A stretch of 64,000 nt of DNA from Candidatus Eiseniibacteriota bacterium (lineage in GTDB: Bacteria > Orphanbacterota > Orphanbacteria > Orphanbacterales > Orphanbacteraceae). Of the stretch, positions 38,168-48,775 are shown piece by piece (the stretch's first letter is position 1; every line of letters begins with the position of its first letter). The stretch is taken from assembly GCA_029262235.1 (NCBI GenBank), contig JAJCZU010000002.1, forward strand, positions 186,001-250,000, in the 5' to 3' direction. The notes under the pieces were generated by a model. The model saw nothing but the letters and a program-made list of their open reading frames with translations, did no database searches and was not told where the DNA came from. Position numbers and translations under genes: made by a program.

Positions 38168-39355
38168 ATGTGCAAGAAGCTACTCGTGATCGCCCTCATT
38201 CTTCAGCTGACGCTTCCCACGATCTCGCGTGCGGAAGGGGAAGAGACCGCGCCGGCGACAGACAATCGCACGACGGAAAAGCTGATCTGGGGGGCGCTGT
38301 CCGTTCTGAACTTCGCGCTCGTGACATCCTCGTTCGTAAACCTTCAGTTCTACGGAGACCGCGCGAACGAGCTCGAAGAGGTCGGCCTCGACGCGGGCCC
38401 GTTCTGGGATGCTTCGAATCGTGAGAAGATGGTGCTCGGCGTTTCGGCGCTGTCGTTCGTGTTCACGCTTGCGGCGTGGAAGAAGTCGTTCGATTCTCCG
38501 GGCATCGCGACGACGCCCGTGATTCGGCAGCCTCAGAACCCGCGCTTTCTCGATGAAGAGAAGGAGCCGGAACCGAAGGGCGAGAACACCGCGTTTCTGG
38601 CATTCGATTCCCAGGTTCGCTATGACACACTCTTCAGCGGAAGCGGCCAGCCCGATCCGGCGGACGCGACGCAGGACCAGGTACTCGATCTTTCCGTAAC
38701 GACGCGCGTGGACACGGTTTTCGAGGACGATGCCATCACGGAATCCGAATGGCCCGTTGCATCGCAGGAGGCGCCGGTTTCCGAGCCGCTCATGGAAGCC
38801 GCCGCTCCGGGAACGACGACAGAAGAAGACATGGAGTTGCCGGTCGACGAGATCCCGGCACCGAAAGATGACAATCTTGCGGCGCTCGCGGAAGTTGCCG
38901 CCGCCGCTGAGGAAGACCAGTCCGCGCCTGAGGATGACCAGTCCGCGCTCGCGGAAGATCCGGTCGCCCAACTGCTTGCTTCGAGGCAGAAGCAGGACGT
39001 CGAATTCGCCGATGAGTCGATTGCCGCGATCACGCTCCCGCCGGAGACGCTCGTCACGACACTGGCCCTTCCCGAACCGGCGGGCGACACGGTTTCGTAT
39101 CCGTTCGAAGTCATGCCGTATGCGGTGCACGTCAGTTCGTTTCGCTCGATAGAACAGGCGGAAGTGGACGAAGCCCGCTGGGTGAAGCGCGGCTATCTCG
39201 TGTTGATCGAAGATGCGGAAGTGAAGGGGGCGACCTGGTACCGCGTTCACGTCGGAAACTTCCCGAGCCGGAACGAGGCGCGTGCGGAAGCGGCGAACAT
39301 TCAGGAACGGTACCGTCACGACTTTGCGCGCGTAACGAAACGCGATGGGTTCTAG
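38168..39355 (+). CDS. SPOR-domain envelope protein
   Basis: 395 residues. GAAGGAG 10 nt before the ATG and a short signal sequence. A second hydrophobic stretch (about 95-105) may span the membrane. A long acidic, low-complexity region (about 130-300, rich in E, D, A and P) follows and ends in a SPOR domain of about 75 residues ('YAVHVSSFRSIEQAEVDEAR', 'GATWYRVHVGNFPSRNEARA'). SPOR domains bind denuded septal peptidoglycan, so a role at the division site or cell wall is likely. Divergent from the barrel operon. Confidence 0.82.
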   Translation: MCKKLLVIALILQLTLPTISRAEGEETAPATDNRTTEKLIWGALSVLNFALVTSSFVNLQFYGDRANELEEVGLDAGPFWDASNREKMVLGVSALSFVFTLAAWKKSFDSPGIATTPVIRQPQNPRFLDEEKEPEPKGENTAFLAFDSQVRYDTLFSGSGQPDPADATQDQVLDLSVTTRVDTVFEDDAITESEWPVASQEAPVSEPLMEAAAPGTTTEEDMELPVDEIPAPKDDNLAALAEVAAAAEEDQSAPEDDQSALAEDPVAQLLASRQKQDVEFADESIAAITLPPETLVTTLALPEPAGDTVSYPFEVMPYAVHVSSFRSIEQAEVDEARWVKRGYLVLIEDAEVKGATWYRVHVGNFPSRNEARAEAANIQERYRHDFARVTKRDGF

Positions 39356-39394: not shown

Positions 39395-41386
39395 CTACTT
39401 GCTCGCGATCTCCCGGTAGATGGCGGCCGTCTCGTCCGCAATCCGATCCCAGTCATAGCGCTGCCGCAGCCACTCCCGGCCCTTGGGCCGCATGATATCG
39501 ACGGCCGCCGGGTCGCCGAGCAGTGTCTCGATCATCTCCTGCAAATGAGCGATGTCGCCCTGGCGATGAACGAATCCGACCGGAGGGCCGTCCCCGGGCG
39601 GGATCGCATTCCAGTCGCCCGCGGGCGTGTTCTCCTCGGACAGCACCTCGAGATTTTCCGGGATGTCGGAGGCCAGGACAGCCGCGCCGAATGACAGCGC
39701 CTCGAGCAGCGCGATCGAAAGCCCTTCGAGATCAGACGGCTGCACGTAGAGGTATGAGTGCGCGTACAGTTCGTCGAGCGCCTCCCCGTACACGTAGCCG
39801 AGAAAGACGATGCGCGGATCATCGCCCGCGAGTCTGCGAAGTGATGCGAAGTATTCATCGGAGTGGCTCGAGCCTCCCGCGATCACGAGTTTCTTCTTCG
39901 TGTCGATTGCGCGGAACGCTTCGATCAGATAATGGCATCCCTTTTCGGGTACGAGCCGGCCGACGAACAGCAGGTAGTCGTGCGGTTCGAGTCCGTGCTT
40001 CTCGCGAATTTCCTGCGAACCGGGCAGCTCTTTCAGATCGATCCCGTTCGGCACGTAATGCACGGGCCGTCCGTACTGCTTTTCGTAATAGGCCTTGAGC
40101 GTCCGCGAAACCGCAATCGTGCGGGTCGGAAACCGGGCCGATGCGTACTCGCCGAACTGCAGGCAGCGCTTCGCGAACGCGCCCCATTTTTCGCGCTTCC
40201 AGTCGAGCCCGTGCACTGTCGTGACCGTCCGTATGCCGAAGAGACGCGGGAGCAGCGCGAAAATCGAAGGGCCCTGCGCGTGGTAGTGCGCGACGTCGAC
40301 CGGCTGCAGCATCATGTGCAGCGTGGCAAGCGCCGTATGACTGATCGCGTCGAGGTGCTTCGTATACACGCTGGGAAGCCGGATGATCTCGAGGCCCTGG
40401 TAGCGTCCTTCGATCTGCGTGTAGTACGAACGCGCGTACACCTTGATGCGGAATCCCTGGCCCGCGAGCCGGTGCGCCAGGTGCGAAACATGGTGCTCGA
40501 TTCCGCCGAACGTCGGCGGGATTCCCTTCGACCCCAGAATCGCGATCGTGGCGAGGTCGAGCGCGAAATGCGAGTCGACCACCTGGTACACTTCATAGAT
40601 CAAGTCTTCTTTCGTACGGTTCGGTACCGCCACGCTTTCCGAAAGAAGAAGGTGGCTGATCAGAAGCTGCAGATGGTCCGGCACCATGCGCACCTTGATG
40701 TGCTCCGCGCGGCACGTGTCGAGCACCGCGAAAATCTGGGCGAAGTCGTCCGGATTCGTCGCGAGAAAAACTTCGCTGATCCGTTTTTCGCTCAGATGCG
40801 CGCGCAGCGTCTCGGACCCTTCTTCGGCCGGCGCGACCGTGATGGTTTCGACAACGCGCGCTCCAAACCACCGGTTGAACTTGATGCGCGTCTCGAGGTC
40901 GTGCCGCAGGCGTCCCTCCCCGATCACGATCACGGGCCGCTGCATGAACCCGCGATCGAAGAGCCAGAGCTGCCAGATCCCGAAGACGAATCGGCCGGCC
41001 GATAAGTAGAAGAACGACAGGATCCAGAACGCGATCAGCGTCGGCCGTGAGAAATGAAAGACCTGGTGGCTCCTCGAGAGCCCTTTCGAGAGAAAGATGA
41101 TCAAAACGGACGCGAGCAGCGTGATCAGAACGATCCGCCCGATCCGGGGGAGAACGTAAGTCGGTTTGAATCGCCGGGGGAACTGGATCTCCTTGAAGTA
41201 GAGGAGCAGAACCACGTGAATGAGATTCACGGCGATCAGAAGGTACGTATACGAGTACAGAAACGAGGGCGCCCACGACGAGAAATTGTAGTCGTGGAAA
41301 CGCAGATAGAGCGCGGTCACGAACGACGCATTCAGCGCGAAGAGGTCGACGAGGACCAACGCAATAGGAAGTATGAAGCGCCGCAA
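39395..41386 (-). CDS. Fusion: polyprenyl-P sugar transferase-type N-terminus with GT4 glycosyltransferase
   Basis: 663 residues, TTG start. Residues 1-150 contain four to five transmembrane segments, and 150-270 look like the CoA_binding_3/nucleotide-binding region of WcaJ-type undecaprenyl-phosphate sugar transferases ('RPVIVIGEGRLRHDLETRI', 'ISEVFLATNPDDFAQIF'). The catalytic transferase domain expected next is absent. Instead a complete GT-B glycosyltransferase of family GT4 starts at about 275 ('ILGSKGIPPTFGGIEHHVSH', 'FVGRLVPEKGCHYLIEAF', 'PSDLEGLSIALLEALSFGAA', with the E-x7-E retaining motif). Probably a membrane-anchored polysaccharide glycosyltransferase. Confidence 0.85.
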   Translation of the reverse strand: MRRFILPIALVLVDLFALNASFVTALYLRFHDYNFSSWAPSFLYSYTYLLIAVNLIHVVLLLYFKEIQFPRRFKPTYVLPRIGRIVLITLLASVLIIFLSKGLSRSHQVFHFSRPTLIAFWILSFFYLSAGRFVFGIWQLWLFDRGFMQRPVIVIGEGRLRHDLETRIKFNRWFGARVVETITVAPAEEGSETLRAHLSEKRISEVFLATNPDDFAQIFAVLDTCRAEHIKVRMVPDHLQLLISHLLLSESVAVPNRTKEDLIYEVYQVVDSHFALDLATIAILGSKGIPPTFGGIEHHVSHLAHRLAGQGFRIKVYARSYYTQIEGRYQGLEIIRLPSVYTKHLDAISHTALATLHMMLQPVDVAHYHAQGPSIFALLPRLFGIRTVTTVHGLDWKREKWGAFAKRCLQFGEYASARFPTRTIAVSRTLKAYYEKQYGRPVHYVPNGIDLKELPGSQEIREKHGLEPHDYLLFVGRLVPEKGCHYLIEAFRAIDTKKKLVIAGGSSHSDEYFASLRRLAGDDPRIVFLGYVYGEALDELYAHSYLYVQPSDLEGLSIALLEALSFGAAVLASDIPENLEVLSEENTPAGDWNAIPPGDGPPVGFVHRQGDIAHLQEMIETLLGDPAAVDIMRPKGREWLRQRYDWDRIADETAAIYREIASK

Positions 41387-41534: not shown

Positions 41535-42587
41535 ATGAGCGAAGAGCTCAGCAAATCCGAACTCAGACATGACCCGATCCAGAAACGATGGGTGATCATT
41601 GCGGCCACGCGAAGCGGTCGCCCTGACAACTTCTCGATGGCGTCGGAGGAACTGACCGACGACGCGGAATGTCCGTTCTGCGACGGCAACGAGTCGCAGA
41701 CGCCGCCTGAGATCATTGCCGTCCGCGAGAACGGAGGGGCGAACGAGCCGGGGTGGAGCGTCCGGGTCGTCCCGAACAAATTCCCCGCGCTCCGCATCGA
41801 AGGCACCGTCCAGCGCCGTGGAATCGGGATCTACGACCGGATCTCGGGGATCGGGGCTCACGAAGTGGTCATCGAGAGCCCGGAACACGACACCCCGTTC
41901 GACGGCCTTGCGCCGGAGAACGCCACGCTGCTCTACCGTGTACTGCAGGAACGCCTCGTCGATCTCATGCGCGACGAGCGCTTCAAATACGTGATCCTGT
42001 TCAAGAACAAGGGCGGGCCGGCGGGCGCGACGCTCAAACACCCGCATCATCAGGTCATCGCGACGCCGATCACGCCGAAGACGGTTGCGATGGAACTCGT
42101 GGCGGCGCGTGAGCATTTTCGCGACAAAGAACGCTGCATCTTCTGCGACATCATCGAGCAGGAGATCCAGTCGGGGGAACGCATCGTCGAGATAACGGAC
42201 CGTTTCGTAGCGTTCACGCCGTACGCGAGCCGTTCGCCCTATGAAATCTTCGTCGGGCCGCGCTATCATGAACACTCGATGACGGAAACGACCGAAGACG
42301 ATCTGGCCGGCCTCGCGGACATCATGCAGCGCGTGCTGCGTCGCCTTCGGCTCGCGCTGAACGATCCGCCTTACAATTATGTGATCCACAACGCCCCGAA
42401 TACGAGCGTCAAACCGAAGCGGGCGTCGTACTGGTCGACCATCGTGCACGACTTTCACTGGCACATCGAAATTCTTCCCCGGACCACGCGCGTGGCGGGC
42501 TTCGAGTGGGGAACCGGGTTCTACATCAATCCGAAGCCGCCCGAAGAGGCCGCCGAGCAGCTTCGTTCCGTTGACGAGGGCGACTGA
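41535..42587 (+). CDS. galT: Galactose-1-phosphate uridylyltransferase
   Basis: 350 residues, HIT superfamily. Catalytic His171 lies in the HPHHQ motif (169-173, family HPHxQ). Zinc ligands include CPFC (46-49) and a second 'CIFCDII'; 'FHWHIEILPR' near the C-terminus is the second His site. Start follows GGGAGAG. Leloir-pathway enzyme exchanging UMP between glucose-1-P and galactose-1-P, supplying UDP-galactose for polysaccharide; no galK or galE in the window. Confidence 0.93.
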   Translation: MSEELSKSELRHDPIQKRWVIIAATRSGRPDNFSMASEELTDDAECPFCDGNESQTPPEIIAVRENGGANEPGWSVRVVPNKFPALRIEGTVQRRGIGIYDRISGIGAHEVVIESPEHDTPFDGLAPENATLLYRVLQERLVDLMRDERFKYVILFKNKGGPAGATLKHPHHQVIATPITPKTVAMELVAAREHFRDKERCIFCDIIEQEIQSGERIVEITDRFVAFTPYASRSPYEIFVGPRYHEHSMTETTEDDLAGLADIMQRVLRRLRLALNDPPYNYVIHNAPNTSVKPKRASYWSTIVHDFHWHIEILPRTTRVAGFEWGTGFYINPKPPEEAAEQLRSVDEGD

Positions 42588-45565: not shown

Positions 45566-46753
45566 TCACGCCTCCCCGCTGTCCGGGCCTTCATCATCCC
45601 TGCGAGCAATACCGGCCAGAGCCAGTCCCGTAATCGTGTAGAGCGTCGTAATCACTTCCGAATCACCCAGGTTCCACTCCAGCGTTCCGTGCAGCAGAAA
45701 TCCCGTCAGGGCCGCGATCGCGGCGATCGAAAGCGCGCGGGGCGCCCCCCCGCCGCGTTTCGTACGCGTGCCGAGCGCCCTGTAGAGACGCACGATCCAG
45801 TGCAGAAGCGCCACGAGGCCGATTGCGCCCATGGCGGCCGCCGTCTGCAGCCAGTTAGAATGAAGATGCGTGAGGCGCTCTTTCGCTTCGGGCGCGCGGT
45901 GCGAAGCGATGACGGGCTCGAGATTCTGCAGGCCCCATCCGAACACGGGTTTCTCCCGCACGAGCGCGACGCCCGCCTCCCACAAGTACGTCCGCTCGAC
46001 ATTGAGCGCGTACCCCGTATCCCACGACGTGATGAGCCGTTCGCGAACCGGCGCATATGCGAGAAGCGCCCCCGCGAACAGGGCGAGGGCGACCACCCCC
46101 GCGCGCGAGCGCATCAGAACGATTGCAATTGCCACCGCCCCGATCCACGCGAACCACGCCGCGCGCGTGTAGGTGAGTACGAGCGCGGCCGTAGTCGCGA
46201 GAAACGCGGCCACGTGCAAAGGGCGAAGCGAGATCCTGCGAAGCGCAAGCACGAGGCAGACGAGGCTCGCCTGCAGAAAGACACCGGTCGATGTCATGTA
46301 GAACCCGATCGGACCGTCGAGGCGGTCGGGGTGATCGCCGAGCCCGCGCGCCTGTTCCCAGAGCCCTGCCATAGCCGCGAGCAGAAACGCGAGTGCGAAG
46401 ACGACGAGCGCCGTGCGCTCGCGCGCTTTCGTCGTGATCACCGCGATCGGGAGAACCGTGAGCAGCATGAGGGGAAACTTGCGGAGTTCGCGCACACCGG
46501 AGCCTGCGTCGCCCGCGAACAGCGCGATCAGGAGTGCGCCCGCCCAGACCAGTATGCCGTAAACGATGCCGCGAAGCCACGCGCTCGTTCGCCACTCTTC
46601 GATCAGCCGTGCGCGCGCGGACGGGTTGCACGCAACAAGCAGTAACGTGGCGCCGCATCCGAGCTGCTGCCCCGCGATCCCGAACGGTAGAAATGCGATG
46701 AGAGCGAGCAGCGTGAAGAAAGCGGCGCGATCGAGCCCCGTACGCAACGTCAC
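45566..46753 (-). CDS. O-antigen ligase / polymerase family membrane protein
   Basis: 395 residues with about ten transmembrane segments and one large periplasmic loop between about 270 and 310 ('RTYLWEAGVALVREKPVFGW', 'LTHLHSNWLQTAAAMGAIG'), containing the WaaL signature 'P..GWG' and H-x-x-x-L. GTG start overlaps the stop of the upstream GT4 gene (GTGA), so the two are translationally coupled. A longer open frame upstream only shadows the GT4 gene. Joins O-polysaccharide to its acceptor or polymerises exopolysaccharide. Confidence 0.87.
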   Translation of the reverse strand: MTLRTGLDRAAFFTLLALIAFLPFGIAGQQLGCGATLLLVACNPSARARLIEEWRTSAWLRGIVYGILVWAGALLIALFAGDAGSGVRELRKFPLMLLTVLPIAVITTKARERTALVVFALAFLLAAMAGLWEQARGLGDHPDRLDGPIGFYMTSTGVFLQASLVCLVLALRRISLRPLHVAAFLATTAALVLTYTRAAWFAWIGAVAIAIVLMRSRAGVVALALFAGALLAYAPVRERLITSWDTGYALNVERTYLWEAGVALVREKPVFGWGLQNLEPVIASHRAPEAKERLTHLHSNWLQTAAAMGAIGLVALLHWIVRLYRALGTRTKRGGGAPRALSIAAIAALTGFLLHGTLEWNLGDSEVITTLYTITGLALAGIARRDDEGPDSGEA

Positions 46754-47850
46754 GCGTCCGGGATCAGCGAGCGGTAAACGGCTTCGGCGTTGCGAATCGT
46801 GTTCTCGACAGAGAAGCGGGCGTGCACTTTCTCGCGATTGTTCTGACGAAACCGCGCGCGGAGCGCCCCGTCTTCGAGCAGCGTCTTGAGCGCTTCGTGA
46901 ATCCGCGGCACGTCGCCGGGTTCGAACAGAAAGCCGTTCTCGCCGTCTTCGATCGCCTCGGGGTTGCCGCCCGCGTTCGTGCAGACGACGGGAAGGGAGC
47001 GCGCCATCGCTTCCAGAATCGAAAGCGAGAATCCTTCGATGATCGAAGGGAGCACGTACACCGTGAGCAGCTCGTACCACGGAAGCACATCCATCTGAAA
47101 CCCGGCATAGATCACGCGGTGGGGGAGACCGAGCTCCGTGCGCAGACGCTCCAGTTCCTCGTCGTGGTCGATCCCGAGAAAGAGCAGCACGACGTCGTCC
47201 GGAATGCCTGTCATGGCGCGCATCAGTTCTTCCTGGCTCTTCTTGCGCGCTACGACACCAACGACGCGCGTTCCCTCGGGAAGCTCGAGTCGCGCGCGGA
47301 TCGCGCTCACCTTTGCCGCGTCCACATGTTCGTAGCGCGCGAGCGGGATGCCGTTGTGCACTACCGCAACATGACTCGCCGGCACGCCGCCCGCGACCAT
47401 GCCGTCGGCCACCGCCTGGCTCACGGCGATGATGCGATCCGTGCCCGCGGCATAGTAGCGGCCCTGCAGCTTACCGCCGGAGGAGAGCGGCACGTTTCTT
47501 CGTGTGTGAACGAGCTGGAACGAGCCGCGAAAGAGCCGCCGCGCCTGAATCGAAAGATGCCGGTCGACCGAAGCGTGCGCGTTCAGAATATCGATCGAGC
47601 GTTCCTCCGCGATGTCGCGGATCGCGCGCGACTTCCGCACGTCGAGCGGCGAATGGCCGAACTGAAACGGAACGAGCGTGACGCGCGCGTGATTCTGAAA
47701 GCGCTCCCAGAGAAGCGATTCTTCGCGCACGCAGAGATACACTTCGTGGCCCCTGTCCGCGAGGCCCCCCGTGAGATAGGTGATGGAGTTCGTGGACCCG
47801 CCGAAGTCGCCCTGGTGCGTCATCTGCAGAATGCGAAGGGGCCGGCTCAT
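46750..47850 (-). CDS. GT4-family glycosyltransferase
   Basis: 366 residues, cytoplasmic GT-B fold. N-terminal 'RILQMTHQGDFGGSTNSITY' glycine-rich acceptor side; C-terminal donor side with 'LPSIIEGFSLSILEAMARSL' and 'PVVCTNAGGNPEAIEDGENG', including E-x7-E. The start at 47850 lies 7 nt after the stop of the deacetylase gene; a longer frame would lie within it. With the O-antigen ligase-like gene it forms a polysaccharide-assembly pair. Confidence 0.88.
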   Translation of the reverse strand: MSRPLRILQMTHQGDFGGSTNSITYLTGGLADRGHEVYLCVREESLLWERFQNHARVTLVPFQFGHSPLDVRKSRAIRDIAEERSIDILNAHASVDRHLSIQARRLFRGSFQLVHTRRNVPLSSGGKLQGRYYAAGTDRIIAVSQAVADGMVAGGVPASHVAVVHNGIPLARYEHVDAAKVSAIRARLELPEGTRVVGVVARKKSQEELMRAMTGIPDDVVLLFLGIDHDEELERLRTELGLPHRVIYAGFQMDVLPWYELLTVYVLPSIIEGFSLSILEAMARSLPVVCTNAGGNPEAIEDGENGFLFEPGDVPRIHEALKTLLEDGALRARFRQNNREKVHARFSVENTIRNAEAVYRSLIPDA

Positions 47851-47857
47851 TGCGGGA

Positions 47858-48775
47858 TCATGCTTCCGTTTCACGCTTGCGAGAGACGGCGATCGCCTCC
47901 AGGCACGTCTGATAATGAATGTGTACGGTGTCGTCGAGACGCCGAGCATAGCCACCGGCGAAGACTACGACAACGGGAATCCTGCGGTCTCCGTAGCGAT
48001 GCAGCACGAGCGCGTCGCGCTTCCGCAGTCCCTCGAGGGTAAGGCGCAGCCCGCCGAGTTGATCTTCGCGATACGGATCCGCGCCGGCGACATAGATCAT
48101 GAGGTCGGGTTCGAACCGCGCGTCGATCGTGTCGAGCCCGCCGCGGAGCGCGTCCAGATAGGCGGTGTCTTCGATTCCGTCGGGGAGGCCGATGTCGAGA
48201 TCCGAGCGCTGCTTCAGGGGGTAGTTGTTTTCCTGATGAATGGAGAACGTGAAAACCGAGTCGTCGTTTTCGAAGATGCGCGCGGTGCCGTTTCCCTGGT
48301 GCACGTCGGTGTCGATGATGAGAACGCGTGCGGGACCGTTTTCTTCCATCTGCATCGCGCGCGCGGCGATTGCAATGTCGTTCACGTAGCAGAAGCCTTC
48401 CGCGTGCCCCGCGAATGCGTGATGAAGCCCGCCGCCGAGGTGCGCTGCGGCGCCGTCTTCCCACGCGCACTCCGCAGCCAGAATGCTCCCGCCGGCCGCG
48501 AGGCGGAAAGCGCCGATGACCTCCGGGTTGACGGGGAGCTCGGACATGGCCGTGCGCTCCGTGTGCGCGGCGCTCTCGAGGTCGTCGATGTAATCGGATG
48601 TGTGCGCGAGGATCAGTTCCGCGCGCGTGATGTCAGGAGGTTCGAGAAACTGAGAGGGAAGGGCGTCGCCGTTTGCGATGAGCTTTTCGCGCACGAGCCG
48701 GTACTTGCTCGTGGGAAACACGTGCGCGCCGATATCCGCTTCGTAACGATGGGAGTAGACGAACCGGACCGGCAA
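47858..48775 (-). CDS. Histone deacetylase-family (AcuC/HDAC-like) amidohydrolase
   Basis: 305 residues, TTG start with AGGGAA 5 nt upstream; its N-terminus (PVRFVYSHRYEADIGAHVFP) matches the family start. Active-site signatures: 'GGGLHHAFAGHAEGFCYVND' (His118, His119), 'LIIDTDVHQGNGT' (zinc ligands Asp157, His159) and 'GADPYREDQLGG' (third zinc Asp). Bacterial members deacetylate proteins such as acetyl-CoA synthetase, or small acetylated amines. The gene lies 10 nt after the anti-sigma gene and just before the polysaccharide genes; whether it acts on acetylated sugars is open. Confidence 0.9.
   Translation of the reverse strand: MPVRFVYSHRYEADIGAHVFPTSKYRLVREKLIANGDALPSQFLEPPDITRAELILAHTSDYIDDLESAAHTERTAMSELPVNPEVIGAFRLAAGGSILAAECAWEDGAAAHLGGGLHHAFAGHAEGFCYVNDIAIAARAMQMEENGPARVLIIDTDVHQGNGTARIFENDDSVFTFSIHQENNYPLKQRSDLDIGLPDGIEDTAYLDALRGGLDTIDARFEPDLMIYVAGADPYREDQLGGLRLTLEGLRKRDALVLHRYGDRRIPVVVVFAGGYARRLDDTVHIHYQTCLEAIAVSRKRETEA

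Follow-up and report, generated by a model that had tools for sequence, protein, structure and literature searches.

A GT4 glycosyltransferase on the scaffold of large initiating transferases in one small bacterial phylum

Introduction

Large monotopic PGTs (WbaP, WcaJ, CpsE) carry a PF13727 domain followed by the catalytic domain PF02397. For WbaP, the passages that concern the PF13727 domain report a dimer interface formed through a beta-hairpin and a response to uridine nucleotides, and for EpsZ the corresponding passages report the lack of the hairpin and activation by a partner protein. The same scaffold is found in PglF/CapD-type dehydratases, where it precedes PF02719, and in the passage that discusses it the 2024 WbaP structure paper (PMC10942596) calls the N-terminal domains common to large PGTs and PglF-like dehydratases puzzling, as the enzyme classes are functionally unrelated. 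The second sugar of the chain is added by GT4 enzymes with a DUF1972 match, Cps2T/WchF and GacB; a title cited in PMC6802508 names Cps2T as adding the second sugar of a pneumococcal repeat unit, and the GacB literature, in the passages that bear on it, mentions the EX7E motif of GT4 enzymes and proposes that DUF1972 forms the acceptor site for GlcNAc-PP. Bifunctional PGTs and GT2-scaffold-PGT proteins hold a glycosyltransferase and an initiator scaffold in one chain.

Here we describe a gene that joins the initiator scaffold to a complete GT4 enzyme, found in a window of 64,000 nucleotides of a Candidatus Eiseniibacteriota genome (contig JAJCZU010000002.1, positions 186,001 to 250,000). With the large monotopic PGTs its product has in common the membrane bundle, the PF13727 domain, conserved residues and the predicted fold, whereas the GT4 enzyme stands where they have PF02397; in place of the dimerising beta-hairpin of WbaP the models predict two helices, nearer to EpsZ as there described. 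It resembles the PglF/CapD-type dehydratases in having a non-PGT enzyme C-terminal of the scaffold after a gap of 44-46 residues, but the catalytic domain is another one and their scaffold lies across a supported split from that of the fusion. The GT4 fold and matches to Cps2T and DUF1972 are common to it and the second-step enzymes, although Cps2T is matched only distantly (88.1 bits, cut-off 500). Like the GT2-scaffold-PGT proteins it combines glycosyltransferase and scaffold, but those (13 frames) keep at least part of the PGT domain and have the glycosyltransferase N-terminal, whereas the fusion has no PGT.

Results

Gene and domain layout

The coordinates of the fusion gene, its parts and its neighbours in the window are as follows.

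39395..41386, minus strand: scaffold-GT4 fusion gene, 663 aa, TTG start (tentative start codon)
40955..41383, minus strand: four-helix membrane bundle, residues 2-144 in the AlphaFold2 model of the N-terminal half
40679..41137, minus strand: CoA_binding_3 (PF13727) match, residues 84-236, overlapping the last membrane helices
40553..40678, minus strand: linker, residues 237-278, of equal length in all six family members
39398..40552, minus strand: complete GT4 (GT-B) enzyme, residues 279-663
40064..40213, minus strand: partial DUF1972 (PF09314) match, residues 392-441
41535..42587, plus strand: galactose-1-phosphate uridylyltransferase-like (galT-like) gene, divergent neighbour kept beside the fusion
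38168..39355, plus strand: SPOR-domain protein gene, convergent neighbour kept beside the fusion

The helices of the bundle are predicted at residues 2-30, 35-63, 75-103 and 114-144 by the AlphaFold2 model of the N-terminal half, and the soluble domain takes up about residues 145-236. For the window protein as a single sequence the PF13727 match is near threshold (27.4 bits, cut-off 25), and all six family members are matched, with a best E of 3.2e-12; the relation to CoA_binding_3 claimed in the preliminary description is thereby upheld. Monomer models predict the linker mostly as two helices (236-248 and 259-269) without a beta-hairpin. In the C-terminal half PF13439 (293-452) and PF00534 (458-638) both exceed the Pfam cut-offs, and DUF1972 is matched in six of six members (33.4 bits in the window protein, cut-off 25).

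Up to E 1, neither PF02397 (Bac_transf) nor PF02719, the catalytic domain of the dehydratases, was among the Pfam matches of the window protein, in agreement with the earlier claim that the catalytic transferase domain is missing. The matches to EPS_sugtrans (TIGR03025, residues 12-255, E 2.7e-19) and WcaJ (TIGR03023, residues 12-245, E 4e-18) end at the expected beginning of the catalytic domain, and their scores of 69.8 and 65.9 bits lie far below the whole-enzyme cut-offs (295.55 and 410.75), as expected because the catalytic half is missing.

No PGT gene adjoins the fusion; its neighbours are the galT-like and SPOR genes, then a GT4 and an O-antigen-ligase-like gene a few kb off. The latter two, a GT4 gene and then a Wzy_C gene, occupy 45569-47955 on the minus strand, and the pair is partly kept in one other locus (L056).

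Occurrence across genomes

A search of 145 genomes gave full-length matches in six, the window's own genome and five more from its family. In the survey asked for by the preliminary description, an N-terminal profile search of 386 genomes, the fusion was found in six, all of this phylum. It is present at full length and in kept synteny in six of the seven genomes of the phylum that were searched, and the five orthologues are 57-63% identical to the window protein. Metagenome assemblies may be chimeric, and an assembly or annotation artefact that fuses two genes has to be considered; all six sequences run through the junction near residue 278 in frame and without a gap, the six assemblies represent five genera, and galT-like and SPOR-domain genes flank the fusion in all five other loci compared, which contradicts a misassembly and leaves such an artefact scarcely credible.

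The seventh genome (G001, same genus) lacks the fusion, and the galT-like and SPOR neighbours are missing as well. This genome is uninformative on loss because its neighbours are gone too and the assembly is 82% complete in about 830 contigs, so that loss and assembly gap are indistinguishable there. An apparent second fusion in G075 (L014, an open frame of 708 aa) was rejected, as its upstream part is arginine-rich and apparently an out-of-frame read-through; the A2 profile gave no match in G075, and L014 was therefore left out of the fusion count. Seven more loci from the phylum of G075 contained six GT2-scaffold-PGT frames, one scaffold-PGT and no GT4 combination. A scan of further contigs with two GT4 patterns yielded 27 loci, of which the three fusions come from the same assemblies as G005, G006 and G002 and are no independent evidence.

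Among what was searched, the scaffold-GT4 architecture is confined to one small, uncultured phylum, and no description of the combination was found in the open-licence literature. The fusion is real and lineage-specific, a known initiating-transferase scaffold with a new catalytic partner.

Descent and predicted fold of the N-terminal half

In the scaffold tree, 26 dehydratase/WecA rows are separated from 58 PGT-type rows by a split with SH-aLRT 100, and the six fusions group together as a single clade among the PGT-type rows. The branch to this clade is long (1.8), and the tree places it no finer than the PGT side. An origin from a dehydratase-type scaffold, hinted at by the gap of 44-46 residues, is rejected on this tree. 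When the fusions were aligned with large PGTs (13 sequences), R132 and G156 did not vary, and D14, R114 and P236 were almost invariant.

The model of the N-terminal half (AlphaFold2, mean pLDDT 81.8) had WbaP 8t53 as its sole PDB match at E<=0.001 (E 5.8e-6, Z 14.9, rmsd 4.4 over 227 residues); the alignment behind this model (A5) has PGT scaffolds in 9 of its 13 rows, so the model is not independent of the PGT family. The A5 profile, with the same rows, itself reaches WbaP in the PDB at 4.7e-10 as its best match, but when the profile was built from the six fusion scaffolds and nothing else, WbaP came up only at E 0.11. The full-length model, for which no PGT rows were used, gives the membrane helices low confidence (block-mean pLDDT 40-64, residues 1-140), and its list of PDB matches is taken up by the GT4 half. 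Judged by the tree and these comparisons, the N-terminal half is to be assigned to the large monotopic PGTs of WbaP/WcaJ type and not to the PglF-type dehydratases, which bears out the WcaJ-type assignment first made for it.

We then asked how the two halves are conserved. In the closest orthologue pair dN/dS was 0.109 for the scaffold and 0.112 for the GT4 half, and 0.133 for the nucleotide-binding-like domain. Identity between the window protein and L009 was 48.4% in the nucleotide-binding-like domain, 61.8% in the bundle and 67.5% in the GT4 half. The domain is whole in six of six sequences and its GxG (G156, G158) is invariant. A relic scaffold is not supported, since in the closest pair both halves are under similar purifying selection; from the near-equal ratios of scaffold and GT4 half we conclude that the scaffold is kept for something.

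The GT4 half and its stand-alone relatives

The GT4 halves of the fusions form one clade nested among stand-alone GT4s. The model of this half matched solved GT4 structures with Z 29.6-39.0 (50 solved entries listed), which together with the two Pfam domains confirms that a complete GT-B enzyme stands at this position; GlgM (6tvp) and sucrose-phosphate synthase (6kih) are among the best solved relatives. Of the NCBIfam models, glgA_Coryne (TIGR02149) of the glycogen-synthase family ranks first with 102.5 bits (cut-off 302.4), followed by the Cps2T match given above (NF046071, E 5.1e-25). In 20 of 20 aligned sequences the GG and HG positions, R477, K482, E554 and E562 are invariant; E554 and E562 form the EX7E motif, and R477 and K482 we take to be the basic donor-site residues of GT4. 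Because these positions are invariant, the GT4 half is probably active.

The surroundings of the nearest stand-alone relatives were compared with those of lower-ranked GT4s. The near set comprised 20 of the 22 non-fusion loci L014-L035, following the ranking in the search of 145 genomes; L026 and L035 were left out as their contigs are about 3.4 kb. A PGT gene lies within about 8 kb, always on the same strand, in 11 of these 20 loci, and the other nine have no PGT gene within the stretch examined. The controls were 20 of 28 lower rows, hand-picked from G084 (6.6e-18) to G107:C62 (5.1e-14); the eight rows skipped are in G000, G001, G007, G072, G041, G030, G118 and G049, that of G007 being a scaffold and not a GT4. 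None of the 20 control loci has a PGT above 40 bits, and one has a weak domain of 30.7 bits. The difference is significant by Fisher's test (p 1.5e-4, or 1.2e-3 when the 30.7-bit domain is counted as 1/20), in a comparison whose controls are lower-ranked GT4s of any context, and whose regions were retrieved when the proximity of some near relatives to PF13727 genes was already known. In the loci of the contig scan other than the fusions, a PGT is present in 9 of 24, all on the same strand, many of these contigs being short and L080 giving no GT4 frame. In nine loci of the two sets together, GT4 and PGT frames adjoin each other (gap <=133 bases), with L063 left out of the count since its frames overlap by read-through. 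This proximity on one strand ties the GT4 subfamily to initiation. The stand-alone relatives examined have no scaffold within the same frame.

As a side observation, in L069, L073, L074, L076 and L077, from Deltaproteobacteria or Desulfobacteraceae records, the GT4 comes first and a large PGT follows a few bases on.

Scaffold types in other proteins

The typed frames came from 30 loci of the N-terminal profile search, from frames picked by length (from about 547 aa upwards, with a single one of 502) and from some extra regions. Typing used locally built profiles, with 20 proteins checked by Pfam. Among the 84 different scaffold-bearing frames, a selective and partly length-picked sample whose counts are not frequencies, there were 37 scaffold-PGT, 22 scaffold-dehydratase, 13 GT2-scaffold-PGT, 6 scaffold-GT4, 4 WecA-scaffold, 1 WecA-scaffold-PGT and 1 WecG-scaffold; the only GT4-bearing frames were the six fusions. 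A distant fusion could have escaped this survey because weaker PF13727 matches, a range that includes the window protein's own score, were left out of typing. The gap between scaffold and enzyme is 44-46 residues in fusions and dehydratases and 35-38 in most PGTs.

The GT4 swap is one among several, as elsewhere the scaffold is joined to WecA-type or WecG/TagA-type transferases in chains that lack a PGT domain. WecA-type transferases with a C-terminal scaffold and no PGT domain are L126:2076-3965, called by Pfam (PF00953), and L137:824-2644, L146:841-2628 and L148:636-2579, called by a local profile; their four scaffolds cluster with those of dehydratases. In L129:1253-2893 a WecG/TagA-family transferase (PF03808) is followed by the scaffold, again without a PGT domain, and L121:2184-4676 has a WecA-type transferase, scaffold and PGT in one chain, that is, two kinds of initiating enzyme.

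Besides the fusion, the window's own genome encodes three PF13727 proteins: two match the PGT domain over its full length, and the third is a GT2-scaffold protein. The last, outside the window (L048:307-2574, C2:928847-931114), is a frame of 756 aa with GT2, PF13727 scaffold and PGT, of which only the second half is recognised (PF02397 positions 91-177). GT2-scaffold frames with weak PGT matches are also found in G004 and G006 (L155, L159). Large PGTs of the window's own genome lie at C2:50533-51708 and C2:1202850-1204100. We infer that the intact PGT domains of this genome would be able to supply an acceptor for the fusion, and, to judge from sequence, mixed dimers among its PF13727 proteins are possible.

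Discussion

PGT-linked relatives, together with DUF1972 as a suggested acceptor site, lead us to propose a second-step transferase acting on sugar-PP-undecaprenol. On balance we think it probable that the fusion is a membrane-tethered enzyme that adds to the initiator's product, may dimerise and perhaps senses uridine nucleotides. The PGT catalytic domain is missing, and the GT4 enzyme occupies the same joint on the initiator scaffold. The GT4 half would move the second sugar from a nucleotide sugar onto sugar-PP-undecaprenol made by a separate, intact PGT of the same cell, and the scaffold would keep it on the cytoplasmic side of the membrane. The scaffold would also dimerise, with the initiating PGT itself as a possible partner, and might respond to uridine nucleotides. 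Several results count against this proposal, namely the absence of an adjoining PGT gene, the partial DUF1972 match, the best match to a glycogen synthase family, the nine of 20 relatives without a PGT, and a predicted model that lacks the WbaP-type dimerising beta-hairpin.

The last of these also speaks for a scaffold that is a membrane anchor only, a spare four-helix bundle borrowed without sensing or partner binding. A GT4 acting on lipid-linked sugars needs membrane access, and of the three parts compared the nucleotide-binding-like domain varies most (48.4% identity against 61.8% for the bundle and 67.5% for GT4). A mere anchor, however, has no need of that domain, which is whole in all six proteins with an invariant GxG and a dN/dS of 0.133, and we regard this explanation as rather unlikely. 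It is quite unlikely that the GT4 half has no part in lipid-linked polysaccharide assembly and acts, say, on a storage glucan or glycolipid, with the scaffold serving for membrane placement. The glycogen-synthase subfamily as best match, GlgM and sucrose-phosphate synthase among the solved relatives, and the divergent galT-like gene would agree with such a role, but the PDB ranking spans GT4 generally and has little bearing on substrate, the DUF1972 and Cps2T matches indicate lipid-PP-sugar acceptors, and the stand-alone relatives, unlike the controls, cluster with PGT genes on one strand.

The fusion might also initiate by itself, GT4 chemistry replacing that of the PGT and placing a sugar directly on undecaprenyl phosphate. 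The initiator's scaffold and joint are kept, and the linker is of similar order to that of other scaffold enzymes; but several intact PGT domains remain in the genome, so there is no vacancy, and no GT4 is known to us that takes undecaprenyl phosphate as its acceptor, which makes this very improbable.

A broader version of the second-step proposal, speculative and in our estimate doubtful, is that the scaffold is a portable docking and nucleotide-sensing module whose carriers (initiating PGTs, sugar-nucleotide dehydratases, WecA-type and WecG-type transferases and the fusion GT4) pair with each other. In this picture the fusion would form a mixed dimer with the initiating PGT, add the second sugar there and be held back by the nucleotide signal that also acts on the PGT.

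The wider lead may be the scaffolds that, with no PGT domain in the chain, are joined to WecA-type or WecG-type transferases. A GT4 on the PGT version of the scaffold is a third enzyme type, and a natural test case for the role of the scaffold, since whatever it does in the fusion happens without PGT chemistry. If the scaffold tethers or senses, this would be measurable on a glycosyltransferase that can be assayed apart from it.
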